A DNA stretch of 64,000 nt from Tubiluchus corallicola (lineage: Eukaryota > Priapulida > Priapulimorpha > Priapulimorphida > Tubiluchidae). Below, one piece after another: positions 9,887-55,283 of the stretch. The position numbers and the translations under genes were made by a program. Positions within the stretch are counted from its first letter, which is position 1. Each line of letters opens with the position of its first letter. The notes below the pieces were generated by a model, which saw only the letters and a program-made list of their open reading frames with translations, was not told the DNA's origin and did no database searches. The DNA lies in the NCBI GenBank assembly GCA_030141605.1, contig JAQGDQ010001037.1, positions 1-64,000 of the forward strand, in the 5' to 3' direction.

Positions 9887-9987
9887 TTATTCCTCCTTTT
9901 TTTCAGCTCCGGTCAGCTCATTGTCCCAGTCTGGCCAGTACTTCTCCTTCATGCGGTAACAGTAGTCTTGAAGATTAGGGAATTCAT
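9887..9987 (-). CDS. FAXC: FAXC terminal exon c, distal cassette (c1)
   Basis: Stop-codon exon of the distal FAXC cassette. The acceptor is TTCGTTGTAG; two bases complete a split Asp codon, then DEFPNLQDYCYRMKEKYWPD and a tail WDNELTGAEKKEE before TAA. FAXC proteins end their GST_C-like domain with a similar Cys/Arg-rich, Phe/Tyr-Trp-Pro segment. Unlike the vertebrate protein there is no long C-terminal tail. Length is 101 bp, identical to its copy at 16393-16493, and 27 of 33 residues match that copy. AATAAA overlaps the stop codon on the coding strand. Confidence 0.85.
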
Positions 9988-10137
9988 CTACAACGAAAAA
10001 TTTATTACAAATGACATTAAAATCTTGATAAAACGTATCGGTAAAGCCACACTTTGGTTTAACGATGAATATTTCTTCAGATATGATACTGTTGTCAGCC
10101 CTGGATTAATTGTTAAGCAAAATAATCATGTGATTCT

Positions 10138-10508
10138 GGTTTCCGGAGACAAGGGAGATCTCACTCAGGGTTTCCGGAGACGAGGGAGATCTCACTCAGG
10201 GTTTCCAGAGACAAGGGAGATCTCACTCAGGGTTTCCGGAGAAGAGGGAGATCTCACTCAGGGTTTCCGGAGACGAGGGAGATCTCACTCAGGGTTTCCG
10301 GAGATGAGGGAGATCTCACTCAGGGTTTCCGGAGATGAGGGAGATCTCACTCAGGGTTTCCGGAGATGAGGGAGATCTCACTCAGGGTTTCCGGAGACGA
10401 GGGAGATCTCACTCAGGGTTTCCAGAGACAAGGGAGATCTCACTCAGGGTTTCCAGAGACAAGGGAGATCTCACTCAGGGTTTCCGGAGACAAGGGAGAT
10501 CTCTCAGT
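10138..10508. repeat. 31-bp minisatellite
   Basis: About 12 near-identical copies of a 31-bp unit containing GGGTTTCCGGAGACGAGGGA and GATCTCACTCA. It lies in the intron between FAXC exons b1 and c1. Because 31 is not a multiple of 3 and no frame contains a stop, long spurious open frames cross it. Confidence 0.95.
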
Positions 10509-11027
10509 TTATCAAATCCAATAATTAACCTAAAGTAAAATTGTTGTGTTTTGTTTCTCTCGGAAGGCTCGTAGAGACAACCAGAAAAAAGGTCGTCAAA
10601 TTAAACTAGTTTATTATGCGAGAATTTTACAACACAAAAGTATGAAGGAATGCAAAATGTTTACAGTAAATGTGATAATCTGGAAACGTGAAAGCGTATC
10701 TGAGAATACGAGAGAATAAACTCCAGCGGCCAGCTCCGCCTTGTATATCGGTGCCAAGGAACAATCTAGAAATAGAAAGTTCTCGAAACTTCTGCAAGGT
10801 AAGAAGATTGTTCTACAATACTATAGAATATTCCAGAATAAACTCCGCAACAAGTCTTTGATTTATGTTTTTAACTCATGTCTATACTTTTATATAATAT
10901 ATTGGTCTAGGCATGTAGGCATGTATAAATTTATTCATGTATTAATATATGGAGAGATTTAAAAAATCTCCCGTATTCTAATTTGCTAATCTGGTAACCC
11001 TATTAGCAAAATTCGTAGGCTTCTCAC

Positions 11028-11144
11028 CCTTGATGTATGTTTCCTGAGGGGAGTTCGGAGCACTCCATACGCACTGTGCCAACATTCCAAATATAGCGCA
11101 ATCAACCTCACATGCCGTTTCACCCATAATGTACGGCTTAGAAC
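11028..11144 (-). CDS. FAXC: FAXC exon b, distal cassette (b1)
   Basis: 117-bp internal exon between a GCATAG acceptor and an AAGG|GTGAGA donor. It reads GSKPYIMGETACEVDCAIFG then MLAQCVWSAPNSPQETYIKG. This is the FAXC GST_C-like segment around 'YIMG...D...FGHLAQ...W'. The split Gly codon is completed by exon a and the final G is completed as Asp by exon c. The copy at 18690-18806 has exactly the same length and phases and matches at 30 of 40 residues. Confidence 0.88.
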
Positions 11145-11204
11145 CTATGCAAACGGGAAGGGTATAGCAATTATATTTCAAGAGTATGATCTATAGAGAC
11201 AAGG

Positions 11205-11635
11205 GGTGAACATTCTCTACCAGTAAGCGAATTCGAATCGAATCGAATTTGCGACTTTCGAATTCGAATCGAACCGAATTTCACTATTTCGAATCCAAAT
11301 CGAATTTGAATTAAGTTTGAAAGATTTTCGAACAAGTTTACAAGCCACTAGTAAAAAGTGGTCTTAGAAAGATCGTGCATATTACTTGATTTCGTTCTGC
11401 AGTAAAACCGCCTTTAGTTTGTTAAAAATTTTGCACAAAAACTGCAGGTAAATTGTGCCAATTGCTTGTTTTTCAAACATTTTAATGATAAAGAACTTAT
11501 GCGGCTAAAGTTCAAATTAGTGGCTGAATTATTTGAATCTATAATGTTAGGTTCAAATCAAATCCGAACTTAAAAAACACATTTGAATTGAATTCGAATG
11601 ATCGAAGTCGAACATTCGATGCTTACCCCTAATAA
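11205..11635. mobile_element. hAT-like MITE, family C
   Basis: It runs from AAGGGGTGAACATTCTCTAC to GATGCTTACCCCTAAT, with GAATTCGAATCGAA inside both ends. It lies in the intron between FAXC exons a1 and b1. The stretch 11640-12120 holds no recognisable feature. Confidence 0.8.
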
Positions 11636-12120
11636 AGACAGGATCTATCCACTGGACAAAACAAAAAAAAACACTAAGACAGCCTAGATGGACTGTAATG
11701 AATTTTTTTACAAAATTGTTGTTCGGGTTTCTCAGAGCTCAATGATTTAAAATTTGCCTCACCTACACGATCTAGATCTTGATTATGCTGGGACATAAAT
11801 TTTAAAACGTTCAGTTCCGAGAACTCCAAGCATTTTTAAATCTGAAAAATTATGATACGATTTTTTTATACAGTTTGGCACTTTGCGAACTTGTAGCAAG
11901 ACTGAAACCTAGCACACTTTGAGGGCCAATTTTCCAAGGCAAGACGATCAGCACTCACAGAATTCATTCCATGTAAGAAACAACCAGAATAAGCATTGCG
12001 CATGAAAGTATATGGCGAATACATCTATATAACTCATTTCATTTTGTCATTCCGTTTCACCCAAAACAATTCGGAAATTCAGAACCAAAATGGAACCAAT
12101 TTTTGAAACCGACATCTTAC

Positions 12121-12323
12121 CCAGATAATCAGACAAAGCTCTCAAGTCTCCTCGGCAGATTGTCAAAACCTCTTCTTTACTGTGACGACCCATTCCCTGT
12201 GAACAGCACTGTCCACGGACTCTTCGCCAAATCATGCTCACAAGAAACCATCCGATCTGATTGTTCGAAATCTCGGGTAAGTTGGCACCTTTCTCGTAAA
12301 TCCAGCGCTGCATCACCAGACAC
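12121..12323 (-). CDS. FAXC: FAXC exon a, distal cassette (a1)
   Basis: 203-bp exon, TTCATCTAG acceptor and CTGG|GTAAGA donor. The first G completes a Trp codon begun in the exon at 27794-27990. The reading is CLVMQRWIYEKGANLPEISN, then a variable part, then QGMGRHSKEEVLTICRGDLR and ALSDYLG. The G-M-G-R-H/F-S-x-E-E and D-L-x-x-L-S/A-x-x-L-G signatures are those of FAXC. Phases in and out equal those of copies at 22162-22370 and 26270-26475. No membrane or thioredoxin-like exons are seen between 12324 and 16392, so this cassette has no N-terminus of its own. Confidence 0.85.
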
Positions 12324-12443
12324 CTAGATGAAACAGGTTCATGAAATTATGTGATTCATGGGCATGGGAAACCCTTTTTGGTATCACCTATTATTAATAC
12401 ACAAATTTCTGTTTTCAGATGGGCTTTATACAACTTTGGAGAT

Positions 12444-12586
12444 CTCTCTCACTCTCTCTCTCTCTCTCCCTCCTCCCTCCCTCTCTCTCTCTCTCTTTCA
12501 TCCTTTCTCTGTCACTTTCCTCTCTCTCTCCTATCTCCCTCTCTCTCTCCTCTCTGTCTCTCTCCCCCTCTCTCTCTCTACCTCTT

Positions 12587-12643
<57 letters not shown>

Positions 12644-12656
12644 TCCCTCTCCCTCT

Positions 12657-12695
<39 letters not shown>

Positions 12696-12790
12696 CCTCT
12701 CTCTCTCCTCTCTGTCTCTCTCCCCCTCTCTCTCTCTTTCATCCTTTCTCTGTCACTTCCCCTCCTCTCTCTCTCTCTCTCTCTCTCTCC
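12444..12790. repeat. CT-rich microsatellite
   Basis: A long CTCTCT/CCCT tract with TCATCCTTTCTCTGTCAC repeated twice. Every frame encodes Leu-Ser strings, which are not genes. A shorter CT tract lies at about 13010-13064. Confidence 0.95.
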
Positions 12791-13285
12791 TGCCCATCAC
12801 AAACAGAGATAGCCTGTACAAACAGACGTCATCTGCTCCAGTATTATAAGTGCATTGCATTTTTGGTGGCTTCATAGTACTCATTCTAGTAAAACACAAT
12901 GTAAAACGACAGCATTGCTACGGAAGTATGGACTGTAGGCTATAGTGCTGCCACACAACCAAATAAGGAATAACTTGTCTAACGTAGTTAAAGTGAACAA
13001 ATTCCTGACTCTCTCTCTCTCTCTCTCTTTCCCCTCCTCTCTCTCTCTCTCTCTCTCTCTCTCCTGCCCATCACAAACAGAGATAGCCTGTACAAACAGA
13101 CGTCATCTGCTCCAGTATTATAAGTGCATTGCATTTTTGGTGGCTTCATAGTACTCATTCTAGTAAAACACAATGTAAAACGACAGCATTGCTACGGAAG
13201 TATGGACTGTAGGCTATAGTGCTGCCACACAACCAAATAAGGAATAACTTGTCTAACGTAGTTAAAGTGAACAAATTCCTGACTC
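12791..13285. repeat. 274-bp tandem duplication
   Basis: The block beginning TGCCCATCACAAACAGAGAT at 12791 is repeated from 13065 with near identity over about 220 bases, separated by a CT tract. The offset is 274 bases. High identity indicates a recent event, or an assembly artefact. Confidence 0.9.
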
Positions 13286-13935
13286 TAATACCCTGGTTCA
13301 AACTTGGAAACCTAATCCAGTTTTCATCCAGAATGCCTATTCACATGGATAGAACTGATTTTTAAATTCATAACTTCAGAAATAGCTTTGCTTTTTTCTG
13401 TCTCAAGACAATTAGTTCTCTGGGAGGCTAGGTCTATAGTGCATAGCAAATGTTTACAATGCTTAAAAGTGAAACTTCATTTGTGAACATTTATTGTCTT
13501 GCTTTGGAACTAATAAATATGTTATGAAAAACTCTCATGCACAACTGATCATTGGTCTTCTACACAGACTTACTCAGTTTACAGTCAACCTCGGATATAA
13601 GGGACACCGCCGGACCGGAAAAAATCGTCCCTTATAACTGAAGTTGAGTTAAGCCGTGGGTGTATCTAGACCTGTACTTTTACCCATATTTTTATGGATT
13701 ATTGCTAGACATTCAGTGCAAATGGCATGTAGGAAGCTCCTTCAGTGATACGAGATGTATGTGACCTCGGCAACCGAGCTGTTCGAAGGCCGAGTTTGCG
13801 AAAAACTGACGTTAAAACTTCATCAATTTCGCTTTGATCATAGGGTCCCTTATATGCGAGGTAATTCAACTAGGTTTCTATTACGCGGGACCTGAAGATA
13901 TCGTCCCTTATAACTGAAAGTCCCTAATATCCGAG

Positions 13936-13988
<53 letters not shown>

Positions 13989-14060
13989 GATTTTTACATA
14001 GGAAAAACGTTACGAAAAATCTGGATCCGTGTTGGTGGTCCCTTATAAGAGAGCACCTTC
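13228..14060. repeat. Inverted duplication, right arm, with pogo-like MITE
   Basis: This is the reverse complement of blocks in 4390-5255. It contains ACAGTCAACCTCGGATATAA at 13581 and repeated CTTATA/GGGAC phrases. A long TA dinucleotide run at 13938-13984 interrupts the distal MITE half. Confidence 0.8.
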
Positions 14061-14074
14061 TACACATGACGTGT

Positions 14075-14590
14075 TTATCCAGGGCTGTGGTGGCTCGAAT
14101 TTAAAATTACTGGAGGTGCTCCTTCAGAAAATTTTTAGCCAATGTTTTAATACTGTGTAAAACGAAACAAGCATGTGTAATTTTAATGTTGGAATTTGTA
14201 ATTGTAATTTTAAACAAACAAACTTATGAAAGTTTATACATAGACTTGATAAATCCTAAACAAAAAAGTTTTTGTTTACTAATAGCCTAAATTGTCACAG
14301 TTCAAGCTTGATCCAATCAAAATAAGTACATGACAACTGACAAGAAACTGTGTGAGAGACAGTACTTTCTCTACCTCGGCTCAGACATGTGCACATGTTC
14401 GCATGTGCACAACAGTCAAACACTGCATTGCTGGAGTGCACTGTGCTGGGCTGTGAAGCAAACAGTACAACCCTCACGTGCTCTGGCTCCATACAAGTAT
14501 AAAGAAAGAACTAAAGAAAAAGACTTATTATACTGAATATTATCGATAGTATCGAATGAAAATAGGGGCTGCTGCAGTTCCCAGTAGCTA
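14075..14590. repeat. Dispersed repeat, family D copy 1
   Basis: Blocks such as CAGAAAATTTTTAGCCAA and ACTGTGTGAGAGACAGTAC recur in the same order at about 25540-25850. There are no coding motifs. The stretch 14600-15720 is AT-rich with nothing recognised. Confidence 0.65.
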
Positions 14591-15721
14591 CACACGAGTT
14601 GCCACTGTTCCATGGCTGAATTTCAAGCATTTTGTTGCAAACGTAAAATGAACGCCATGCCTAATAGCCGTGATTCATCAAAGACAATGTTTCAGCATTT
14701 AGTAATTCAAATAAAAACCATTAAGAAGTCCTATGATCAAAAAGTTTTTATTGATACACCTTTGTTCGAATGTGGTCATACATAAAAACCGTGGAATAAT
14801 AGTACGCACATAAGCACTCAGCACTACAGTGACACATTATAATGTTCTACCACCTAAGCCAACATCGGACCCCCGTCCAAAATGCCTTCAAAATTACAAA
14901 AATATCATAATCAAAAATACATTCACATTTATTGCAGTCTAAACGACAAAAATACATTTTTGTCGAGAGAAATATAATGGGAAATATTATGCTATTATTA
15001 TGCTATATCAAAATAATGGGAAATTTAATATGCTATAACAATTCACTAAAGTCTCGAGATTATGCTAAAAGTCTGGACGGGTTTAGGTTATTTAAACTAG
15101 TTACCAAGCCGAAAATAATTAAGAATGGACAATTTGCAGAGCCGTACTGCTCTATATTCATGATTACAATAACATCAAATGGAAAACTTACAGCAAAATG
15201 CTAGATCTATAATAATAAAGTAAACAATTTATATAATATAATAGACTAGTACAGTATCAGAGCTGCAGATAAACTAACTATATGTTATCAGGTACATCTT
15301 ACATTTGTCAAAACAAAACAGAATTTTTCCTTTATTTGTAGACGGAATTACAGCTAGAATTTTCAAATGATTTTTGGCCGAAACTGTTCTACGCTTCACC
15401 TGTGGTGTAATTTATAAACCTTTTAATCCCAGTTACGACAAAATAGTTAGGATTAAATTATAGTTATTAAATTATTATAAAATACTAAACTTTACGGTGC
15501 TGCCCAACTCCATAACCATGAATACAATATCTTATCCGAAACTTGGGGCAAATCCTAGATCTATATAACAACTTACAAAAATTATATAATATAATAGACT
15601 AGTAACGTATAAGAGCTGTGTAAAAAATATATATCATAACATCTTACGCTTGCCACAAATTATGAAATTAGAAATTGGTTTTTCATTTATTTTCAGACAG
15701 TGTTCGGTGTGACTTACTTCT

Positions 15722-16258
15722 AACACGTCTTACAGTATTTTCGTTACTAGTTACGATTCATGTTCATACGGCACATGATACATCACATTACAGTATTTTC
15801 GTTACTAGTTATGATTCATGTTCATACAGAACATGATACATCACGTTACAGTATTTTCGTTACTAGTTACAATTCAGGTTCACACGGTACATGATACATC
15901 ACGTTACAGTATTTTCGTTACTAGTTACAATTCATGTTCATACGGCACATGATACATCTTGTTACAGTATTTTTGCTACTAGTTATGATTCATGTTCACA
16001 TGGCACATTGATACATCACGTTACAGTATTTTCGTTACTAGTTACGATTCATGTTCATACGGCACATGATACATCACGTTACTGTATTTTTGTTACTAGT
16101 TATGATTCATGTTCATACAGCATATTGATACATCACGTTACAGTATTTTTGTTACTAGTTATGATTCATGTTCACACAACACATTGATACATCACGTTAC
16201 AGTATTTTCGTTACTAGTTACGATTCATGTTCACACAACACATTGATACATCACGCCA
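15722..16258. repeat. 58-bp minisatellite
   Basis: About nine copies of a 58-59 bp unit containing CATCACGTTACAGTATTTTC and TTACTAGTTACGATTCATG. It lies 135 bases downstream of the stop of proximal FAXC exon c2. Confidence 0.95.
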
Positions 16259-16392
16259 CACGACTAATATCATAATAATCTAATCATCTACTCACAGTGT
16301 CACTAGTTTACCAGTAACGGTTAGTGAAACTCTGAATTTCGAACGCTTTTCTAACAGGAGGCAGTGTCACCAAAAATCGAGGTCCACTATCT

Positions 16393-16493
16393 TTATTCCT
16401 CCTTTTTCTGGGCTCCGGCCAGCTCATTGTCCCAGTCGGGCCAGTAAATCTCTTTCATACGATAGCAGTAATCTTTCAGGTTAGAGAAATCGT
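16393..16493 (-). CDS. FAXC: FAXC terminal exon c, proximal cassette (c2)
   Basis: 101-bp stop-codon exon. The acceptor is GTTTGCAG; the split Asp codon is completed, then DFSNLKDYCYRMKEIYWPDW and DNELAGAQKKEE before TAA. It is near-identical in size and phase to c1 at 9887-9987. AATAAA overlaps the stop on the coding strand. Joined as 29141-29250, 28632-28770, 27794-27990, 22162-22370, 18690-18806 and this exon, the total is 873 bp, an open frame of 290 residues. Confidence 0.87.
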
Positions 16494-16779
16494 CTGCAAA
16501 CAAAATGAATCGCATGTTACACGTGCGTATCTTTAGGGGTGTATTTACCAAGCAGTTAAGTAAGCCATAAACTAGGGGACAAAATTTTGAGGGGCGTCAG
16601 ATTTTTAGGGTCCAGTGTTAAAAAACTCAGGCAGTTCTCCAAATATGAATCTTTTCCTGTTTCATATGAGGCAGTTTTGCCACACGGTTAGTTTCAAGGA
16701 GTTTTGATAGAGCGTGTATAGACCGTAGGATCTTTTTTTATTTTACTTGGATGTTGCCAAAAATTTCAAATACAAGTAG

Positions 16780-16945
16780 TTATAACACACCACAAGTAGT
16801 TACTTAATCATTATTATATATAAAAGCAGAATACCAGTAATTGTAATACATCACAAGCAGGTACTTAGACATTATTATATATAAAAGTAGAAAACCAGTA
16901 GTTATAACACACCACAAGCAGTTATTCAGTCACTTATATATATAT
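16780..16945. repeat. About 61-bp tandem repeat, three copies
   Basis: Units contain CACCACAAG(T/C)AGTTA and ATTATTATATATAAAAG. It ends in a TA-rich tract to about 16970. From 16970 to 17760 nothing else is recognised. Confidence 0.8.
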
Positions 16946-17766
16946 AAATATATATATATATATACATGTAAGTGTAAGGCCGCAAACAGGTACTGATTTT
17001 GTTTTTACATAAAAGCCAAACAACATACGAGATCAAATTAAATTTTGCAGAATTAATACATAAAAGACATTAAGTCATAAATAATTTTGCAGCCTCTCTA
17101 GATAAAAGCATATGTAAATGCATGTCATTAGCAATAGCCTCATGTGTACAAAAGTAGTAATACTACTAACACACCACAAGCAATTTTTCCAAAAGGTATA
17201 ATATATAAACGACCATAATTTGAAAAGGCTGCACTGAACTATCAGCAAAGGGAGTTGTGATATCTTAATACTCCTCTACATATTTTATTAACAAAATGTA
17301 GTCCGTATTTTTTAAGTAAATGAACTTTCAATACGATCACGACAAAATAGTCCTCTTTACAGGTTACACCTTTCGAAAGCAAGTAAGCAAAAACCAACAC
17401 AAATTGGCCACTCAGTTGAAAGCTAGAACTCCATGTTCATGTAATGCACGAACCGTGATCGCAATGCGTGATGCCTACTGACCGTTTCCATGCGTCCGTG
17501 AACGCTTTGCATACTCACAAAACTCACGGGCCATTTCCGCCGTTTTTGGTTGCTGTTTGTGAAAATTGGAAGTGATAATATTTGGAAGCCGTGAAACTAG
17601 TGATGATGTCTTATTACTAGTGTAACTGTCTAAATTTCAGCGCACAAGTGCACAAGAACTAATCACATCAGTGGCATTAGCTTATCATTGTACTATTGCT
17701 ATTAAATTCAACAAAATGCAAGTTATGCGGGCATAACATTTTGCACGAGAAAGAGCAACACACCTA

Positions 17767-18008
17767 GGGTTGCCAGATTAAAAATACAGGACACTCTTAA
17801 AATCTCTCTATATATTACTCTATATACAAATTTATACATTTGGTAGTAAAATTGCAGTAGTAAAAATTTATGTAAAAATAGCAGTACAAATTTATTTTTA
17901 TTATTAAATTTGAAAACGAACTAAGTACGGGATATTTTGGGTGTCCCTAAAAGGTCAGTACGGGACAGAGGACAAAATTATCATATAAGGGGCGTCTGGC
18001 AACCCTAA
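17767..18008. mobile_element. MITE with AGGGTTGCCAGA ends
   Basis: Left end AGGGTTGCCAGATTAAAAAT and right end GTCTGGCAACCCT are inverted repeats enclosing about 240 bases of AT-rich DNA. Small elements with such ends are common in animals. No coding capacity. Confidence 0.7.
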
Positions 18009-18689
18009 ATACACCATTTAGTGAAGGAATTAAAACTGAAAGTAAATACAGAACAGCACACTTCTTCCAACTCTCAAAAAACTCAAGTGAAAGAAATATT
18101 ACTGTGTATAGATCATGAAGCGACCAAAATTTACCCGCCCGGAAAGCCAATCAGCGAAAATGGTCACGGTAGACTCGAACTAGCTAAATCACCTAGGCAA
18201 CGGTGGTTTCCGGTGGGCAAGTTCACGCGACAGCAATCACGCTCGATTGAATATGGATCATGCATTATGGATTGCACATTATGCGCACGTGGAAACCCTT
18301 CGAGCATTTAAATACGAACTGCTGTACACGCACTGCATACAATGGATCACACATTACTCGTACATGGAGTTCTACGTTAAGGCTACAACAAAAAACTCGA
18401 ATATGTATAGTCGTTTAAAAAACTGAGGTTGCATAATTAATTTTTTCTAACGACAGCCAGTATCTGTTGACGTTCTAGAATCAGGAGAGGCCATAGTTTA
18501 CAGGAAAACAATTTTCTGATACAGAATTCCACAGAAAAGAGGCCCGAAGGAAAAACAGGCTTTACAAGTAGCCGTTCTCCATCTAAGAATGTCAGAACTT
18601 TGATACTTGTCAACGAGTAAGTGTGCGGAATATTTTTACAAGAACCTGCACATCTGCATCTGTGATTAGTAAACAAGAGAGCATCTTAC

Positions 18690-18806
18690 CCTGCATGAAC
18701 GATTCGTGAGGTGAATTAGGCATGCTCCACATACACTGCGCTAACATTCCAAATATGGCACAGTCAACTTCACATGGCGTTTCACCCATAAAATACTGCT
18801 TTGATC
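18690..18806 (-). CDS. FAXC: FAXC exon b, proximal cassette (b2)
   Basis: 117-bp exon between a TTTTTACCTAG acceptor and a CAGG|GTAAGA donor. It reads GSKQYFMGETPCEVDCAIFG then MLAQCMWSMPNSPHESFMQG. Both cysteines and the Phe-Gly-x-Leu-Ala-Gln-x-x-Trp core are shared with b1. Ten residues of 40 differ, mostly conservative (Ile/Phe, Tyr/Phe, Val/Met), suggesting both copies are under protein-level selection; this is inference. Confidence 0.9.
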
Positions 18807-18924
18807 CTAGGTAAAAAAATGTAAATAAATTATTAGTTTAGTATAGTTATTAGACCAAAAATAAACTGATTGAAATTCTGCCTGAAAGTTATTACTGCAA
18901 ACATCAATAGATGTCTATAAACAG

Positions 18925-20047
18925 GGAAACAGGTTCCTATGGGCTAAGTACGCAGGTCTATACACAGTCAAAGAGGTACCTATAGGCTAAGTATGCAGGT
19001 CTATAAACAGGGAAACAGGTACCTATGGGCTAAGTACGCAGGTCTATACACAGGCAAACAGGTACCTATGGGCCCAGTATGCATGTCTATGCGCAGGCAA
19101 ACAGGTACCTATGGGCTAAGTACGCAGGTCTATAAACAGGGAAACAGGTTCCTATGGGCTAAGTACGCAGGCCTATACACAGGTACCTATTGGCAAAGTA
19201 CACAGGTCTATACACAGTCAAAGAGGTACCTATAGGCTAAGTATGCAGGTCTATAAACAGGGAAACAGGTACCTATGGGCTAAGTACGCAGGTCTATACA
19301 CAGGCAAACAGGTACCTATGGGCCAAGTATGCATGTCTATGCGCAGGCAAACAGGTACCTATGGGCTAAGTACGCAGGTCTATAAACAGGGAAACAGGTT
19401 CCTATGGGCTAAGTACGCAGGTCTATACACAGGTACCTATTGGCAAAGTACGCAGGTCTATACACAGGCAAACAGGTACCTATGGGCTAAGTACGCAGGT
19501 CTATACACAGTCAAAGAGGTACCTATAGGCTAAGTATGCAGGTCTATACACAGGCAAACAGGTACCTATGGGCTAAGTATGCAGGTCTATACACAGACAA
19601 ACAAGTACCTATAGGCTAAGTACGCAGGTCTATACACAGGCAAACAGGTACCTATGGGCTAAGTACGCAGGTCTATACACAGGTACCTATTGGCAAAGTA
19701 CGCAGGTCTATACACAGACAAACAGGTACCTATGGGCTAAGTACGCAGGTCTATACACAGGCAAACAGGTACCTATGGGCTAAGTATGCAGGTCTATACA
19801 CGGACAAACAGGTACCTATGGGCTAAGTATGCAGGTCTATACACAGGCAAACAGGTACCTATGGGCTAAGTATGCAGGTCTATACACAGGCAAACAGGTA
19901 CCTATAGGCTAAGTACGCAGGTCTATACACAGGCAAACAGGTACCTATGGGCTAAGTATGCAGGTCTATACACAGGCAAACAGGTACCTATGGGCTAAGT
20001 ATGCAGGTCTATACACAGGCAAACAGGTACCTATGGGCTAAGTATGC
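18925..20047. repeat. 43-bp minisatellite
   Basis: About 26 copies of a 43-bp unit, AGGTACCTATGGGCTAAGTA followed by TGCAGGTCTATACACAGGCA. A block of about 265 bases inside it is itself duplicated (about 18950-19215 and 19215-19480), showing higher-order structure. It lies in the FAXC intron between exons a2 and b2. Confidence 0.97.
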
Positions 20048-21149
20048 ACACTATTGTGCTTCTTAGTTCATAATCTTACAATTACTCATAAAAATTACGA
20101 TAAAATAAACAACAGCAGCAACAGAGAAATAACATCTTAATTACAACAAGTCTATAAACTCGTTAAATATCGTGAACAGTTTGAATCACGTTAATGATGC
20201 CAATAATAGTTAACTATTACCTGACGCACTTTTGTCACGTTACCTTCCAGTGACAATGCAGCTATAATAAACATTTATTCTGTGCACAAGTTACTAAAGA
20301 GCATGCCCAGTCGAAGACTAAATAGCAAAGAACATGCAGATTCTACCGTTTGATCGTGCAATCAATACCATATTACACATGGGATTAATCAGGAAGAAAT
20401 TATGCTTAAGCAAACTATCATTTCCTACTGTATGCAAGCATTCTGTGACACGCACACTAACGCGCAACAGCCTAGGTAGTAACATCACTAAATAGAATGA
20501 CAGCTTGTTTTACTATCACGTAACTGAGTCATTCGTTTCAGTTTATCGGTTATTTTGCATACACAAACAAAAGGCTGCGAATAATTTAGAATTGATAACA
20601 AATATATCTTTCCTTAGTTACTAACGCAATTTTTATTATAAATTTATAATACTTGTATTTATTAAACATGTCTTGCAACAAGCTGCTAACATGTCACTTG
20701 ATTAACTAAATAATGTTAACTGAGAAAAATTGTTAACGTGAGAAAAATTGTTAACTGAGAAAAATTGTTAACGTGAGAAAAATTGTAAACTCTTGCACAT
20801 TGAGAATTCCAAAGCTATGCTACTATGTAAATAACAGTCAAGTAAATTTAAGATTTAAATATAGTTGTACTGTAGATCTAAACGAAAATGTAAAATTAAA
20901 GGTTAAGAACTCATTTAAAGATTATGTTTTAAGATATCTATTATAGCTCCTTACAACACTGTATAATGTAATATAATTACAAGGGAACTACAATGTGTGG
21001 TTATTATAAAGTTGAATATCTGTATATATGTTACCTTACTAATACCGCATTACCTGTTTTACTAACATCTTTATCTTTGTAAACTGTATATTTTATACGA
21101 AATAAACTCATAATAATAATAATAAATAAATGTTAATGTCGTACAAATA

Positions 21150-21285
21150 GGGGTGGCTGCTAGGTGACCTCATGATCTTATGGCACCCCGTCTCAATGTA
21201 GTGTTTATCATCTTAAAGAAACATTGTATATTATTATATGTGTAACTTTACATTAGACAAATAAAATCTAATCTAATTTAACTAT
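21150..21285 (+). mobile_element. 3' tail of a non-LTR retrotransposon
   Basis: GGGGTGG at 21150 pairs with CACCCC at 21184 around a GTGACCTCATGATC loop, then AATAAAATCTAATCTAA. The layout (hairpin, AATAAA, short tandem tail) matches other copies at 37190-37470, 38350-38468 and, reversed, 50030-50270. The preceding stretch 20050-21145 is AT-rich with a short GAGAAAAATTGTTAAC tandem at 20720-20790. Confidence 0.55.
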
Positions 21286-21339
21286 GAATGACCAAATCAC
21301 GACCATAGACATACTTATTACAGTTACTATGGTTACTGG

Positions 21340-21985
21340 TTGTTTCTGCAAGAGTCATACTGCTCTTTGTGCTTGTTGGTTTTGCTGTTGATGTTGCCGT
21401 TATTGTTTCTTTCATGTGCTATTCTTGTTGTTGCTGTCGTCGCTATGGCACTGTTGTTATTGTTGTTACGGCTGTTAACTCTGTTGTTGTCATTACTGTC
21501 ACTGCACCTGTTGTCATCGTTAACGCTGTTGTTGTCATTGTTTTTGTTTGAGCTGCTGCTGCTGTTGATGCTGTCATTGTCACCATTGTCACCTCTGCTG
21601 CTGCTGTTATCGGCAATGTTGCCGTTGTCGTTCTTATTGTTGCTCTTGCTGTTGTTGCTGATTGGTTGTTTCTGTTGATGTTATTACAGTTGCTGATACT
21701 GTTACTGTTGCTGTTATTACTGCTGATGCCTTGTTGTTACACCATCGTTGTTGTTTGTTGTTATTGTTGTTGTTATTGTTGATGTAGCTATTGTTGCTGT
21801 TCATGTTATTGTTGATGCTCCTGATGCCTCGTTGTTACCACCATCATTGTTTGTTGTTGTTGTCGTCATCGTTGTTATTGTTGTCGTCATCGTTGTTATT
21901 GTTGTTGTTATTGCTGATGCTGGTTGTTATTATTGTTGTTCTATGTTTTCTTTCTTTTCTTCACGTTCTTGCTACTATTGTTGTT
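21340..21985. repeat. GTT/CTG-rich trinucleotide tract
   Basis: Irregular TGTTGTTG, GCTGTTG and GTCATCG triplets. All frames give hydrophobic Leu/Val strings without homology. It lies about 180 bases past the donor of FAXC exon a2. Confidence 0.9.
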
Positions 21986-22161
21986 TAACTTATCAATATA
22001 TTATGCTAAAAATTCTTAGTTTCCAGATGTTTTATTTTCGCATGTAATTAAATTTAAAAGATTTATTTAAATAAAGTATTTATTTTGGCGGTTCGGCATC
22101 AAAAGAAAATAACAACTGATACTTAAACAAACAAAACCAATTTTCTAAACTAATAGCTCAC

Positions 22162-22370
22162 CGAGATAATCAGACAATGCTTTCAAATCACCATAACAAA
22201 TTGCCATAACCTCTTTTTTGTTGTGACGTCCCATTCCCTGCGACCACAACTTACGACGAATCGTCCGAGTGACCATAAACGCGACGATCGGCCCAAATTT
22301 ATTGCCCGAAATCTCGGCAAAGTGGGAACCGTGACCTTTCTCGTAAACAAAGCGCTGCACACCTAATCCC
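22162..22370 (-). CDS. FAXC: FAXC exon a, proximal cassette (a2)
   Basis: 209-bp exon with acceptor TTTATACAG and donor CTCG|GTGAGC. The first G completes the Trp codon of the preceding exon: W-GLGVQRFVYEKGHGSHFAEI, then SGNKFGPIVAFMVTRTIRRK and LWSQGMGRHNKKEVMAICYG, DLKALSDYLG. The R-x-x-W-x-Q-G-M-G-R-H and D-L-x-A-L-S-D-Y-L-G elements are the FAXC GST_C-like signature. A closer TTAG acceptor exists but would break phase. With exons b2 and c2 this is the default full-length model. Confidence 0.88.
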
Positions 22371-22504
22371 CTGTATAAAGAAGGTCTTTACACTGCTTAG
22401 CAATACTACAGGGTGGCACAAAACATTTTCCTGGAGGGACAGGATTGAAAACCAAAGAGTGACAGATAGTACAGAACAATTCACCACATCAACGTTCTGT
22501 TGAA

Positions 22505-22890
22505 TGGGGGTGAGCATCGAACGCTCGAATTCGATTCGAACGAGTTTCTTCAGTTCGAACTCGATTCGAATCCAAAACTATAGATTCGAATAATTCAGCA
22601 CTTCAATCACACGTGTTCTTTATCACTAAAACGATTGAAACATCATGCAATTAGCATAATTTAGCTGTGATTTCTGCACCCAATTTTAAAGAAATTACTA
22701 GTCGTTTTATTGCAGAACAAAATCTAGTGATATACATGATCTTTGTAAGACCAATTTTTACTGGTGGTTCGAAAATCTTCCAATGTCAATTCGAATTTGA
22801 AACACCGAAGTTCAGTTCGATTCGAATTCGAAAGTCACAAATTCGGTTCGATTCGAATTCGCTTTCTGGTAGAGAATGCTCACCCCTACT
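22505..22890. mobile_element. hAT-like MITE, family C
   Basis: It runs from GGGGGTGAGCATCGAACGCT to GAGAATGCTCACCCCTAC, about 385 bases, with GAATTCGATTCGAA in both subterminal parts. It is among the better preserved copies. Confidence 0.85.
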
Positions 22891-23049
22891 GTTGAAACAA
22901 TAACGAATCTATCACGCCCTCAAATTTAGTGTGAAAGCTTTGTACAGGAAGACATGTCACGCTAAAGACCCATATCAATGGGCAAAATAGGAATTAATCC
23001 TTACATTGGAATACGCATAAATAATTTTCTAATGACTTGTAATTAATTT

Positions 23050-23905
23050 TTTAGTATTCATAATTATCTTGCCAATGTCAGAGACCCAAATGCTGCTTCT
23101 AGTTGCTCTATGCAAAATGGGACTTTGGGAAGTATAAATTTTGTCATACTTCTGAGACATGGTCAAATTTGACAACAACTGATTGGGAGAAATTAGAAAT
23201 GATTCAAGCAAATGCTTTTAAAACATTATTAAATCTTAGTGAATGAAATACTGGGGATTAGTAACGGAAATAGGCATATGGCCTCTAAAACATAAAGTGA
23301 ATTATAGGAGATTGATGTTCTATCAGAATTTACTGATTAGTAAACCAAAGAGATTAGCATCAGAGGTACTCGAAATGCAAATATACAGTGCACATGAAAG
23401 GTCATGGTATAATGAAGTAGTTGAGGCTGAAAAATGCTAATAAAGAAAGGGTGAAGGTCAGGAAAAAGTCTGAAAGGAAGAAAGAAATAAAGAATAAGAT
23501 TGAATGTTGTATAAAGAATGAATGTGCAGAAAAATGCAGGAGCAGCACTAAATTAAGATTTTTAAGGCATACTGAGTGGAAACGACAAAATTACATAGAC
23601 ACATGCAAGCCAGAAGAGGTTAAAGATATATTGAAAATAAGACTGAATATGATTAAAGTTAAAGGGAACTACAAGAATGAGTTTAAGAATCAGTTATTAT
23701 GCCCAGTGTGTGGGGAAGATGATGATACTACTGAACATATGCTTAGATGTTACAGATATGGAGAATGGAAAAAAAATTGAACTCAGATGTATTAATGAAC
23801 AGTGAAAAGGAAGGATTGCTAGAAATTAGAAATCTAGTGAACGAATGCATGGAATACAGGATAAAGAAAAATAAAGACATTAAACTTGGAAAAGACAAAT
23901 AAAAG
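23050..23905 (+). pseudogene. Non-LTR retrotransposon fragment, C-terminal reverse-transcriptase region
   Basis: Broken coding sequence of a LINE. A first block reads WEKLEMIQANAFKTLLNLSE then a stop. The next reads GIWPLKHKVNYRRLMFYQNL and EVLEMQIYSAHERSWYNEVV. A final block has the C-terminal zinc knuckle CPVCGEDDDTTEHMLRCYRY. Several stops and a probable frameshift at the A run near 23769 break it; after that shift the reading continues LNSDVLMNSEKEGLLEIRNL to a stop near 23900. It lies in an intron of FAXC and runs opposite to the gene. The clade is undetermined. Confidence 0.8.
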
Positions 23906-24562
23906 ATCAGCGTTAAAGAAGAATAGACTTTGCACCCTATAAAGGTGCCCGCCTCGGATAGGTGGAGAGAGTCGAGTATCGCAATCGCAATACTTCACTG
24001 ATTGGGTAACAGTGATCAATCTTGATAAAAATGCACACTTTTCCTGTGGTCATTATCATTAATTGTTACAAATGATAAATATTACAATACAATTAATTCA
24101 TTATACAAAAACGTGACTGGTATACCAAATAAGTGAAAACAATCACATGGGAGGTACCTGCAGTAATAAAGCAAATCTAGCGCTGCAGGTGTGAAGGAGG
24201 GAGCAGGTGCAAAACATTGAATCTTAATTATAAATATTTAACTGACATCAGAAAACAGCTGAGTCCCGACAAATACTTAAACGAACGTTTAGTTTTAGTT
24301 CTCTGCAGCACATTTAACTATAGGATACATTATATACAGTAGCACTAATTAGCACGACTCAGTGGGTGAGCCCATGTAATGTAAATGCTTGTGGCAGGAC
24401 TGGCACCTAGTACTATCAGAGATAATCGCCTAAGGTTCTATGACGAGATAATGAATCTTAGAATTGTGATTTAATGTTAAACTTAAAGCAAAATCAGATC
24501 TAATCCAAAAGTGTAGGTCAAAACAATCTACTCTTTAAAATATGTGCATTGAAATGAAAAAA

Positions 24563-25013
24563 ATGACTTACCGCTAGTTAGACGGTCACTAGTGCCTGCA
24601 CTTCAGAAATGCATTTGATAAAAAACAGGTGCTATACCTCTCAGTTCAGATGTGTTAGTTTGTGATGAACTACACACGTTCGACAGTACACGCGTGAGTT
24701 TCAAACCCGAATTTTTTATCTTAAAACTTGCCAAGTTTTAGTACAACACACTGAATATCTTACAGTAGCTCAGTGCTTCAACTTTCGCTTTTGCAAACAC
24801 GTGCAACACGCTCGTGGAATATTTTTGCTCTTGAAAATTATGTTAGTTTGTGATGTCATCAATAGTTGGGCTCGCCCGCCGTTAATTAAGTTTTTAACCT
24901 ACCATTTAATAATCAGAAACTCTTTTGCAGTGTTAATTGTCTTAAAATGTAAACTTTTTATCGTACTAGAAGATGGGTCAGTATATGAAAAATTACCCAG
25001 TCTTCCTTCAAAT
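24563..25013 (+). mobile_element. Dispersed repeat, family E copy 1
   Basis: Non-coding repeat with four copies here: this one, 31800-32345 (reverse), 44480-44960 (same sense) and 46530-47115 (reverse). Shared blocks include GTTAGTTTGTGATGTCATCA and CTTCAGAAATGCATTT. The stretch 23910-24560 holds nothing recognised. Confidence 0.75.
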
Positions 25014-25539
25014 TAAGAACACAACTCTATAAGCAACAGATAACTCTTGAGAAATGTTGTATCTGGTTCCTGTACTGTACCGGTGTTCCCACTACCATGT
25101 CTAGCTTGTTTATCAGACTTGGACTCCTTAGTAACAAGTCTATCCTAAATCATAAGTTTATACACTGTCTGGACTTTTGGCTAGGGTTCTGTTATTAATA
25201 ACAGACGGCAAGGTCACCTACAGGCCAAACAAACATTTCAAAACAACAAGTTCGCAAGAGCAAATGCTACAACACGCAGACTGCACATCATTAAATCTTA
25301 TAAAAATAATTCTTATGAACGAATTGACTACAGAATTTCCAAGTAGAACCAGGTGTGTTTTTATGGCTATTTCTGAGATCAGAAATTTGGCTGCTAGTTG
25401 GGAAAATGTTGTTTCACTTCATGCTGACTCAGCACTTTTTTCTGTTCAGAATATAAACCAGCATGAAAAATGCCAGCATGCTCGTGTAAAATGTATGAAA
25501 ACCAGCAATGTTATGCTGTCGGGAACAGTGGCGCCACGT

Positions 25540-25850
25540 AGTTAACATTAATGGTGGTACTGTTTCAGAAAATTTTTTAGCCAAAATTTTTAATACTGTG
25601 TAAAACATAACAAACATATCTAACTTTAATGTTGTAATTTGTAATTGTAATTCTAAACAAACAAACATAAGAAAATTTATACTAAAGAATGGCTTAAATT
25701 GCCGGAGCCAGAATATGCCAGTACATGGTTTTTACGCACGCGACAACTGACAACAAACTGTGTGAGCGACAGTACATACTCTGCCTAGCAGCAGACGCTA
25801 GCAATGCAGCATACAGACATCTCAGACATGTGCACATGGACGTATATTGG
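25540..25850. repeat. Dispersed repeat, family D copy 2
   Basis: Matches 14075-14590 in order and sense: CAGAAAATTTTTTAGCCAA, ACTGTGTAAAACATAACA, ACTGTGTGAGCGACAGTAC and CTCAGACATGTGCACATG. Confidence 0.65.
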
Positions 25851-26059
25851 ACGATTCTGGATATATAAGTCAGTCTATGTCCAAATAGTGTCCTAACTCC
25901 TTTCTTAACCCCTCCTAACTTAATTTTAGTGCCACTGAATCACTGATCTAAAATAGTGGTTTCAAGAACTAATAATGACCATCAACTTCCAGCAATAATG
26001 CAACTCATGCAAGAATGCAAAGTAAACCAAACACTTGCATGTTACAAGAAGTATCATGC

Positions 26060-26232
26060 GTGGCAACAGGCTGCACGTGGCATGCGTGGCGACAGGCTGC
26101 ACGTGGCATGCGTGGCGAGAGGCTGTAGGTGGCATGCGTGGCGAGAGGCTGCACGTGGCATGCGTGGCAACAGGCTGCACGTGGCATGCATGGCAATAGG
26201 CTGCAGGTAGGCATGCATGGCGACCTGCTGCA
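26060..26232. repeat. 26-bp minisatellite
   Basis: Six to seven copies of GTGGCATGCGTGGCAACAGG plus CTGCAC. It lies 38 bases downstream of the splice donor of FAXC exon a3, so it sits at the start of that intron. Confidence 0.93.
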
Positions 26233-26269
26233 AGCACCAAAGCGGAAATTTCGTGCCAAAATGGTTCAC

Positions 26270-26475
26270 CGAGAAAAGTGGACAGCGCAGACAGATCGCC
26301 AGCGGTAATTTGCTGCACTTCGTCGCTGGTGTGGCGACCGATGCCCTGGCCCCACAGCTGTTTCCGAATGACGTGACGAAGCATGAGTGGGAGTATCCAC
26401 AGTTTGAAGCCAGTGTAGGGCATGATACTGCGTACGTTTGTCAGATCACCAGCTAGGGAACAGTAACACATGGTC
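26270..26475 (-). CDS. FAXC: FAXC exon a, third version (a3)
   Basis: 206-bp exon with a strong acceptor (TATTTTCTCCCTAG) and donor CTCG|GTGAAC. The first G completes the preceding Trp codon: W-TMCYCSLAGDLTNVRSIMPY, TGFKLWILPLMLRHVIRKQL, WGQGIGRHTSDEVQQITAGD, LSALSTFLG. It is the most diverged copy in its first third (no YEKG) but keeps WGQGIGRH and DLxALSxFLG, and the frame is fully open. I found no b or c exon between here and 22370, so it would have to splice to b2 or b1. It is the first a-type exon met by the spliceosome. It could be a functional alternative exon or an early-decaying copy, although no stop is present. Confidence 0.8.
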
Positions 26476-27019
26476 CTAGGGAGAAAATATATTGTTGGTA
26501 TTCTCTGCAATCTAATTGTCTATACAGACAAAATTATATACCATGTGTGTGCTTGCAAACCAAAACCGCCCACAAGTCGGTATAGTTAAAATTGTGTTAT
26601 GATGCTTCAAAGTAGAATGCACTAAAAATTTGATCAAATATCGATTTTTTGTTTTTTACAAAAACAAGCGCTAAATAAAATATATGTAAGATTAATCTTT
26701 TGTGATGATTTTTAGTGTTTAGGCCATATTTTTTCAATTATGGTAGTGAATTTTTCTATAAACTTCTTCACGGCTTTCTCCACTGTCTCCATTTTCGTAC
26801 TCGCAAATTATTTTTGGACACGTCATTTTTTTCTTATTTGCTCAATGAACATGTCACTTTAAATGCATTAGGTGGTAATGAATTTGGAGTTATAACTAAT
26901 TTTGAGTCAACATAGCGGAACTGCACAATGTCGAGGTTTGGCAACATTCTTACTATAATTAACACTACCATCACCACTGCCACGAACCAAAACCACTACT
27001 ACGTATACTACACTACTTA

Positions 27020-27555
27020 AAGGAAAACCGAACGATTGCGTAAACATTAGTTCAGAATAAAGAATGCTCTAAAATATTGAAAACGGCAATAGCCTTTTTT
27101 AAATCAAGGCTTAGAATAAATAATAGTTACCTTGGATACTCAAATTTTGTTAAACTTTCAAAGTTGCGTGTGGCTCAGTGAATCTACTAAGATTGGCAAC
27201 GGTGCCTTTTTGTCACATGCGCGTGGTCGACAAATAAAAGACGGTACCGTGATAACCACGATCATGAAATGTAGTGTCAGTTTCTGATGTCATATGATGT
27301 AGAGCCCACTTTCGTGACATCACGTATTAAGCAGTAACACTTATGCAAACATGCTTGACATGCAAGGGAAGATGCCTATTATTGCACAAACTGTGGTTAG
27401 TTTCTGACATAAGCAATAGCTGTGTTCGGTTGCCGTTAATTAACTTCCTAAGCTAATTATTCAAATATAAGAAATAATTGCTAACTTTTATAGGCAAGAA
27501 AATGTATATCTTGGACAGTAAATTAAAATGAGATGAAATCGTCCGGTTTTCATTT
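27020..27555. mobile_element. Inverted-repeat element, family B copy 2
   Basis: Second copy of the element at 971-1530. The ends are AGGAAAACCGAACGATTG and AATCGTCCGGTTTTCATTT. It lies in the FAXC intron between exon 3 and exon a3. From 26520 to 27010 nothing is recognised. Confidence 0.75.
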
Positions 27556-27793
27556 AACTACACTAATAATTACTACTACTTAATTACAGTACTACATTTT
27601 TCTCTACGTTGCACATCTACAAACATCAGCCAGACCCTGACCCCCACCCCACTACTCGGCAAAACAAAAGTATGACAGCTAAAGACCCGAAATGTCTCTT
27701 TAAAACATGTCAAAGTGCTAAATTGTAAACCAAGACTTAGATGTAGCGAGATACTGCTTAGATAAATCTAATGAGTTTTCTTCGTTGCCCTAC

Positions 27794-27990
27794 CAGTACA
27801 AATTCTCCTCCGTCATCTTCTGGAACGCTCTAGCGATCGCTCTCTCCTCTTTTGACAAGTGCTTGTTCAAATCCACGTCCAACTTCTCATTGAGGAAGTC
27901 AATGCAGAATTGGGAGTCGGCAATGTCTTCCCCATTGTACGTAATCCAGGGAGTCTTCCCCTTTTTTGAGAACCCATCACTGTGGTCATT
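27794..27990 (-). CDS. FAXC: FAXC exon 3 (thioredoxin-like / start of GST_C)
   Basis: 197-bp exon, acceptor ATTTGTCTAG, donor TACTG|GTAGGG. It begins in phase 0 and reads NDHSDGFSKKGKTPWITYNG, EDIADSQFCIDFLNEKLDVD, LNKHLSKEERAIARAFQKMT, EENLYW, the last Trp being split. This is a clear FAXC match around 'G-K-x-P-W-I-x-Y-N' and 'L-G-V-N-L-N-K-x-L'. It is present only once in the locus, shared by all cassettes. Confidence 0.93.
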
Positions 27991-31799: not shown

Positions 31800-32345
31800 T
31801 TGGAAGACAGGATGATTTTTCAAATACTACCCCTTTTCAAGTACAGTAAAAAAGTATACATTTTAGAACAATTGATACTGCGAAAGAGTTCCTGATAATT
31901 AAATAATAGGTTATAAACTTAATTAACGGTGGGCGATCCTCAACTGTTGATGACATCACAAAGTAATATAATTTTCAAGAGCAAAAATATTCCACGAGCA
32001 TATTCAGAAAAATGAAAATTGGTACAAAATATTTAGTACAAACGAATATTTGTACTAAAACTAGGCAAGTTTTAGGATAAAAATTCAGATTTCAAACTTA
32101 CCGCTGTGCTCACGCATTAGTTGTCGAACTTGTGTAGCTTGTCACAAACTAACACATCTGAACTAAGAGGTACAGCACGTGTTTTTTTGTGCAATGCGCT
32201 TCCGACATGCAGGCACTAGTGTTCATCTAACTAATGAATGGCGAAATGCATGTATATGCGAAGAACTAGTGACGCATATGTGAAATTGTGTTTGTGTGGT
32301 AATAATTGTTTCACATAAGTCATTTTTGAAAAAATAGTTTCTTTT
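31800..32345 (-). mobile_element. Dispersed repeat, family E copy 2
   Basis: Reverse-oriented copy of the repeat at 24563-25013 (GTTGATGACATCACAAAGTA, ACTAACACATCTGAACTAAG). From 32346 to 33087 there are only weak open frames. Confidence 0.75.
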
Positions 32346-48136: not shown

Positions 48137-48224
48137 GTATGCATCATTTAATGACTTGCTTGATTTGTATAACAAGTATTGAAAGAAGTTTACAATTTCC
48201 CACACCATTTAAATACTCTAGCCC

Positions 48225-48670
48225 TAATCCTAACCCTAGTCCTAACTCGCCCTAACCCTAATCCTAATCCTAACACCCAAACTGTAATCTTAACCCTAAC
48301 CCTAACTCACCCTAATCCTAATCTTTATCCTAACTCAATCTAACCCTAATCTTAACCCTAACTCACCATAACCCTAATCCTAACCCTAACTCAACCCAAT
48401 CCTAACCTTTATCCTAACTCAGCCTAACCCTAATCTTTATCCTAACTCATCCTAACCCTAATCCTAGCCCTAATTCACCCTAACCATAATCCTAGCCCTA
48501 ACTCACCCTAACCCTAATCCCAACCCTAACTCACCCTAGCCCTAATCTTAACCCTCACTCAACCTAACCCTAATCTAAACCCTAATCCTAATCTTAACCC
48601 TGATCCTAACCCTAACCTTAACTCTCCGTAACCTTAACTCACCCTAACCCTAATCCTAACTCTAATTTCT
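48225..48670. repeat. Interstitial telomere-like CCCTAA array
   Basis: About 445 bases of degenerate CCTAACCCTAATCCTAACTC units. It starts about 90 bases past an ABLIM splice donor, inside the intron. Units drift among CCCTAA, TCCTAA and TCACCCTAA. Confidence 0.93.
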
Positions 48671-54790: not shown

Positions 54791-55283
54791 AAGGGAAATT
54801 TTCTTTGGCCCGAACGGCACCTGACAAATCTACATTTTGCGGAAACCGCTCAAAATTATTATCATGGTTACGATCAATTTTTTACGCTTGCTTTTGACAA
54901 TATGTTGAAGGAAGTGTAAATTAAAGCATTTTGCCTTCTGTAGAGAAACTCTATGAAGACTCAAAGCCCCTTTGTATTTATGTTGCAAGCTGTTTTACGT
55001 TATATGTTTTTTGTATTTTTGCTTTTAAATGTTTGTTCGTATGTTTGATTGACTGATTGATTTTTCGTTTGTTTTATCATTTTACTCCTGTTCTGCAATA
55101 ATTTTCCTTCATATTTTTACTTTTTCATCTGTTTAGCTTACTGCACTTTATAAAAGATTATGTTTCGTTGTGTGTATTAAGTGCAATGTTATAATTTGTA
55201 GTTAAATTGCTGTATTTACAAGTGCATTTGGAAGCGTATTTTCTTATTTCAATGAGATTTGATGCTCATAAGTGATAATTTGA

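Follow-up and report, generated by a model that had tools for sequence, protein, structure and literature searches.

A FAXC-family gene of Tubiluchus corallicola with a single set of N-terminal exons and probable alternative 3' cassettes

We analyzed a 64,000-nucleotide stretch of the Tubiluchus corallicola genome (positions 1-64,000 of the 68,456-base contig JAQGDQ010001037.1, hereafter the window) and found on its minus strand one set of N-terminal exons, e1-e3, followed by a lone exon, a3, and by two complete C-terminal exon cassettes, a2-b2-c2 and a1-b1-c1. Both full cassettes remain intact and show constraint; for a3, constraint was detected in the second half only. No second N-terminal set was found. 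We consider it likely that these exons form a single FAXC-family (failed axon connections) gene, in which the constant exons e1-e3 would be spliced to alternative 3' cassettes, with a3 as an additional choice.

Results

We re-read the exons on the minus strand and then rebuilt the gene by script. They run in the order e1-e2-e3 (29250-27794), a3, a2-b2-c2, a1-b1-c1:

29250-29141, minus strand: exon e1, common to all forms, 110 nt; start codon and hydrophobic N-terminal anchor (MAGFEILFVSTALLISFFAF...)
28770-28632, minus strand: exon e2, common to all forms, 139 nt; first part of the thioredoxin-like GST_N_4 domain
27990-27794, minus strand: exon e3, common to all forms, 197 nt; remainder of the GST_N_4 domain
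26475-26270, minus strand: exon a3, alternative, 206 nt
22370-22162, minus strand: exon a2, cassette 2, 209 nt
18806-18690, minus strand: exon b2, cassette 2, 117 nt; GST_C_6 core
16493-16393, minus strand: exon c2, cassette 2, 101 nt including the stop
12323-12121, minus strand: exon a1, cassette 1, 203 nt
11144-11028, minus strand: exon b1, cassette 1, 117 nt; GST_C_6 core
9987-9887, minus strand: exon c1, cassette 1, 101 nt including the stop

Every intron is bounded by GT-AG and phases match across all ten exons. The donor of e1 is GTAAGA, while that of a3, GTGAAC, is without the usual G at +5 and is by eye the weakest among the a donors. No b or c exon belonging to a3 was found. AATAAA motifs lie across the c2 stop codon (window 16397) and 701 nt past it, as well as across the c1 stop codon (window 9891) and 207 and 213 nt past it. 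Exon a3 is also open through its donor into a 26-bp minisatellite (window 25962-26519, minus strand; 185 aa stop to stop); this read-through frame is probably due to chance, and a3 could in principle terminate there.

The reading frame permits many joins. Exon e3 ends with two nucleotides of a Trp codon whose third base comes from each of the a exons; one base remains at the end of each a, the b exons add two and again leave one, and the c exons supply the last two and finish in TAA. Each of the 12 possible a x b x c combinations stays open, giving products of 288, 289 or 290 aa depending on the a exon. These results bear out the original prediction, made from the sequence, of a single N-terminal set followed by a3, a2-b2-c2 and a1-b1-c1 (exons, splice dinucleotides, sizes and phases all agree) and of phase-compatible a, b and c exons that yield 288-290 residues with no stop or broken splice site. 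Its further statement that any a could join any b or c holds for phase but not for cis-splicing: because a1 sits downstream of b2 and c2, only 7 of the 12 combinations are possible in cis with one b and one c. Moreover, the a exon lengths are all 2 modulo 3, so that an mRNA with zero, two or three a exons would be frameshifted and one a is allowed per mRNA.

By its predicted domains the locus is a FAXC-family gene. In searches against Pfam, the window protein matched GST_N_4 at 103.2 bits (E = 1.3e-29; cut-off 30 bits) and GST_C_6 at 73.5 bits (a2-b2-c2), 70.4 bits (a1-b1-c1) and 75.8 bits (a3-b2-c2; cut-off 28), with GST_C_6 E-values from 1e-19 to 2e-21 across these forms. We take this domain pair to be the mark of FAXC, and assigned the family by it; the family comparison covered in-genome paralogues and bacterial relatives. 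The best-matching solved structure by sequence is a glutathione S-transferase (GST) named StyI (9qd3; E = 5e-11). The e3/a junction aligned with the bacterial stretch EENLYW/TMVYDRW (slash at the junction) and should fall in helix 4 of the GST fold. In classical GSTs, the substrate pocket is lined by the last part of helix 4 and the stretch after it.

The copies resemble each other far above chance. With a2-b2-c2 as the query, tblastn against the 64-kb window returned a1 (E = 1e-17), b1 (E = 2e-16), c1 (E = 5e-16) and a3 (E = 4e-9). Counted over whole codons, cassettes 1 and 2 are identical at 28/38 residues in b and 26/32 in c (74% and 81%), close to the 30/40 and 27/33 given in the original prediction. 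Exon a is the most diverged, as had been proposed (a1/a2 36/67, a1/a3 20/66, a2/a3 23/68), although the divergence is concentrated in its first half (14/34, 3/33 and 4/35 for the same pairs) rather than its second (22/33, 17/33 and 19/33). In a direct one-strand comparison (E<=1e-3), similarity between the cassettes is confined to the three exon pairs and a handful of adjoining bases; where gene regions otherwise match one another, the sequence is a repeat with further copies at other places in the window or at other loci.

We looked for a second front end in several ways. Using the joined protein as the query, tblastn turned up no further e1, e2 or e3 anywhere in the 64-kb window. A hidden Markov model (HMM) of 14 FAXC-like N-terminal regions, with the window gene included among its rows, was scanned against 3547 six-frame window peptides of at least 12 aa. 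The gene's own e3 and e2, represented in that HMM, scored 98.3 and 60.1 bits; the next best window peptide, at 54944 on the opposite strand, reached only 6.3 bits, and the best other listed peptide on the same strand inside the gene reached 2.6 bits. A genome-wide GST_N_4 search at E<=10 gave 17 matches, and on this contig these were only e3 (72.1 bits, the sole match on the contig above the Pfam cut-off) and e2 (22.0 bits); the 4.5 kb of contig outside the window held no further N-terminal match. Since b and c are 74% and 81% identical, an e2 or e3 duplicated along with them should have been detected by these searches. On this contig, a single N-terminal exon set was recovered alongside several C-terminal ones, and the earlier observation that no N-terminal exons were found for the downstream copies stands by tblastn, by the family HMM and by the GST_N_4 search.

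Other FAXC-like copies in the genome (343.5 Mb, 2344 contigs) served as a control: three on C1209, two on C685 and one each on C1889, C2314 and C1911. The same HMM found N-terminal exons for seven of these eight: e2 and e3 parts for six copies (two on C1209, two on C685, C1889 and C1911) and e3 alone for the third C1209 copy. None was found for C2314, where the N-terminal part would be upstream; of the 7.8 kb between this copy and the contig end, the search covered 4.2 kb. Three of the six full successes were themselves rows of the HMM; the independent successes were one C1209 copy, one C685 copy, C1889 and the e3 of the third C1209 copy.

These searches bear on the possibility that a2-b2-c2 and a1-b1-c1 are separate genes, each with its own first exons and promoter and with an N-terminal part that is foreign or diverged beyond recognition. 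Elsewhere in this genome, FAXC copies that lie in tandem do carry N-terminal exons of their own (two of those on C1209 and the two on C685), and there is space for such exons, 3.9 kb before a2 and 4.1 kb before a1. However, neither the window scan nor the GST_N_4 search of the contig detected another e2- or e3-like peptide, even though b and c of the copies are so well preserved, and the phase at which the a exons start, with the last base of the Trp codon, is preserved in all three. We therefore regard separate genes as unlikely.

Next, we consider whether the cassettes have been maintained. Over the 137 codons per cassette, which contain no stop or frame shift, the proportions of synonymous and nonsynonymous differences between cassettes 1 and 2 were pS = 0.63 and pN = 0.17, and the corresponding distances dS = 1.38 and dN = 0.20. 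The resulting dN/dS of ~0.14, a comparison that the original prediction had proposed as a check, indicates purifying selection. Bootstrapping gave pN>=pS in 0/1000 replicates, and in 12/1000 for the first half of a1/a2 alone. All five splice dinucleotides are intact in each cassette. In a neutral simulation started from cassette 2 (4000 runs per branch), mean stops were 5.6, 7.3 and 8.1 at branches of 0.3, 0.5 and 0.69, the last being half of dS, and stop-free runs numbered 12/4000, 1/4000 and 1/4000, respectively. Cassettes 1 and 2 are old and under purifying selection, and the scarcity of stop-free neutral runs indicates that both were retained for most of their history. The second half of a3 is likewise constrained (pN>=pS in 6/1000 bootstraps against a2 and 1/1000 against a1).

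We also considered a3 as the ancestral exon and set this aside. An HMM of four in-genome paralogue stretches favored a3 (36.1 bits, versus 27.2 for a2 and 23.7 for a1), but an HMM of ten bacterial relatives did not: it scored the single exons alike (a1 36.5, a2 35.1, a3 34.7 bits) and the a3 form lowest among the whole proteins of the window (a1-b1-c1 196.0, a2-b2-c2 192.0, a3-b2-c2 188.3 bits).

It is conceivable that the 3' copies arose by partial tandem duplication of the 3' half and are unused or were lately silenced. The third copy on C1209 (copy C; L038 4743-5785) is of this kind: it comprises e3-a-b only, its frame is shifted between L038 4822 and 4814, no e1-e2 was found for it, and it looks like a decaying partial duplicate. 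C685 likewise carries an additional b-like fragment (L040 8403-8507, 46% identity). Against this, each window copy keeps its open codons and its splice dinucleotides, and dN/dS is low at a dS as high as 1.38, which makes unused duplication quite improbable.

The paralogues share 31-41% identity with the window gene in single exons, with e3 exons of paralogues among the matches, and the multi-exon paralogues appear, judging from match ends, to have other C-terminal intron positions (between V and D, not after LG). On C1911 (L044 3315-4247) there is an intronless FAXC-like frame, 310 aa open and 302 from the first ATG, which shares 69-80% identity with each C685 copy in four of five stretches (37% and 55% in the fifth); it is a probable, still-open retrocopy. 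GST_C_6 matches were also found on C1803 and C1280, and on C1809, where we take them to be AIMP2-like. Two nearly identical GST_C open frames of this AIMP2-like kind lie 1.2 kb apart on C1809 (L047 4713-5123 and 5901-6311, minus strand), owing either to a recent tandem duplication at exon scale or to an artefact of assembly.

The introns of the window gene contain minisatellites and simple repeats (18913-20048, 10138-10503 and, before a1, 12443-12789). That an assembly error fused copies from other loci or haplotypes is very improbable: the locus does rest on a single contig with such long intron repeats, but the window has no N, the copies are far too different for haplotypes, all pieces lie on one strand in a coherent order, and the a2-b2-c2 protein query found no exon closer than 41% on any other contig.

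The introns preceding a2 and a1 share a 155-bp match (25528-25682 and 14087-14239, respectively), which was examined as a conserved intron splice selector and rejected, because it also occurs in L040 and L041 and is a dispersed repeat. Rfam gave nothing at gathering threshold in the window. A ~520-bp repeat pair of 83% identity has one member within the e3-a3 intron (27014-27534) and the other at 965-1489, and a ~440-bp dispersed element at 24572-25013 has copies near 32000, 44700 and 46700 at 77-82% identity. Elsewhere in the window there is an interstitial CTAACC-like repeat array (48218-48665), and a 325-aa open frame on the plus strand (1679-2656), of which the 296 aa beginning at the first ATG give a match to CAF1-p150_C2 (E = 8.7e-14); this is probably the last exon of an adjoining CHAF1A gene.

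Discussion

Several observations weigh against a single alternatively spliced gene. The exon order depends on one contig with long intron minisatellites. A diverged second first exon alone may have escaped the HMM, as e1 is short (36 residues) and too variable; the gene's own e1 lies beyond the reach of the full family HMM, at 9.7 bits. The first half of a3 gave no significant constraint against a2 (pN>=pS in 111/1000), and since the constraint averages both lineages, one cassette may have been lost recently. Base pairing as a possible guide to exon choice, between the e3-a3 intron and the 300 nt before a3 and a2, or the 120 nt before a1, was no better than in shuffled sequences (60/60 shuffles for a3, 57/60 for a2 and 50/60 for a1 were as stable or more so), in a weak test that is crude for long stretches. 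Lastly, unused partial FAXC duplicates do occur in this genome, which makes the intact cassettes of the window more telling yet keeps unused duplication alive as an explanation.

If the locus is a single gene, one promoter and front end would serve all forms, with e1-e3 joined to exactly one a exon and then to a terminal b-c cassette. Exons a3 and a2 would compete for the e3 donor as mutually exclusive exons before b2-c2, and either could in principle also precede b1-c1. Exon a1 would become usable only once the c2 poly(A) site is bypassed, and would then run into b1-c1. Frame arithmetic could act as a proofreader, as a wrong number of a exons would shift the frame. All products would have the same N-terminal domain, and their differences would lie in the C-terminal helical domain, chiefly in the first half of exon a; according to the GST alignment, exon a would swap the last part of helix 4 and the stretch after it. 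By analogy with the GST fold, exon a may thereby set partner or ligand specificity. The swap might tune partners instead, because a published model pairs FAXC, in the manner of a metaxin, with MTX2 as a heterodimer (PMC10452860).

A more speculative extension, which we hold with considerable doubt, is that the locus acts as a switch. Up to seven FAXC proteins allowed in cis would combine a common membrane anchor and thioredoxin-like half with one of three helix-4/5 walls, setting the partner (for example, a metaxin-2-like protein) or the ligand in each cell, the choice being made first by competition among a exons and then by whether polyadenylation is early or late. One gene would then decide which partner or ligand FAXC meets per cell. 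A single gene of this design could yield several related FAXC proteins, and its forms with a constant half and a variable wall would reveal the surface tuned by evolution, and with it the place to look for partners.

FAXC is a little-studied, brain-expressed protein of the GST fold (PMC10452860). The human FAXC/metaxin group has the GST_N_4 and GST_C_6 domains as the window protein does, and the passages on this group that we draw on mention no such exon arrangement. Among open-licence papers, compared by title and the start of the abstract, we found no FAXC gene with such cassettes. The original suggestion that the arrangement is undescribed may thus hold for FAXC, but alternative splicing of GST genes is already in print: a shared 5' half with alternative 3' cassettes may be new for FAXC, and is of a kind known from GSTs.

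Mutually exclusive exons typically have equal phases and lengths that are not multiples of three. The a exons are homologous, lie in tandem, have equal phases and have lengths not divisible by three, and as in that class only one would be used per mRNA. What sets this locus apart from that class is the additional duplication of entire 3' terminal cassettes, each including a stop and a poly(A) site. Mutually exclusive tandem duplicated exons are described as ancient and convergently evolved (PMC9741552).

The closest parallels are found among insect GSTs. In Anopheles class I (delta-class) GSTs (An. dirus isozymes 1-3 and 1-4; An. gambiae GSTD1), one N-terminal exon is joined to different C-terminal exons, with one alternative exon per isoform. 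As in our reading of the window gene, a GST fold is altered by alternative splicing, but these are delta-class enzymes and not FAXC, and the window gene has a three-exon cassette with its own stop as well as a lone extra exon. For An. dirus, alternative splicing is stated to modify the active site and change substrate specificity (PMC1950890, citing Oakley et al. 2001), and splice variants of An. gambiae GSTD1 are listed in a figure 1 legend (PMC1761136). A further paper covers splicing of sigma-class GSTs in two mosquitoes, its passages saying nothing about GSTD1 splicing (PMC4654499). In Drosophila, exon 1 is common to GSTO2A and GSTO2B, each of which has its own 3' exons and 3' untranslated region; the supporting-figure legend concerns D. 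yakuba. The structure was inferred by curation on the pattern of D. melanogaster, and of the other 11 species D. mojavensis and D. grimshawi are named as exceptions (PMC4195677). GSTO2 differs from the window gene in being of the omega class and in having a single exon as its common part. With the GSTD1 and GSTO2 type, the window gene shares a single N-terminal set followed by intact, constrained cassettes (for a3, in the second half only). If our reading is right, it would stand beside these mosquito and fly genes as another case in which the GST fold is diversified through spliced swaps of its C-terminal part.

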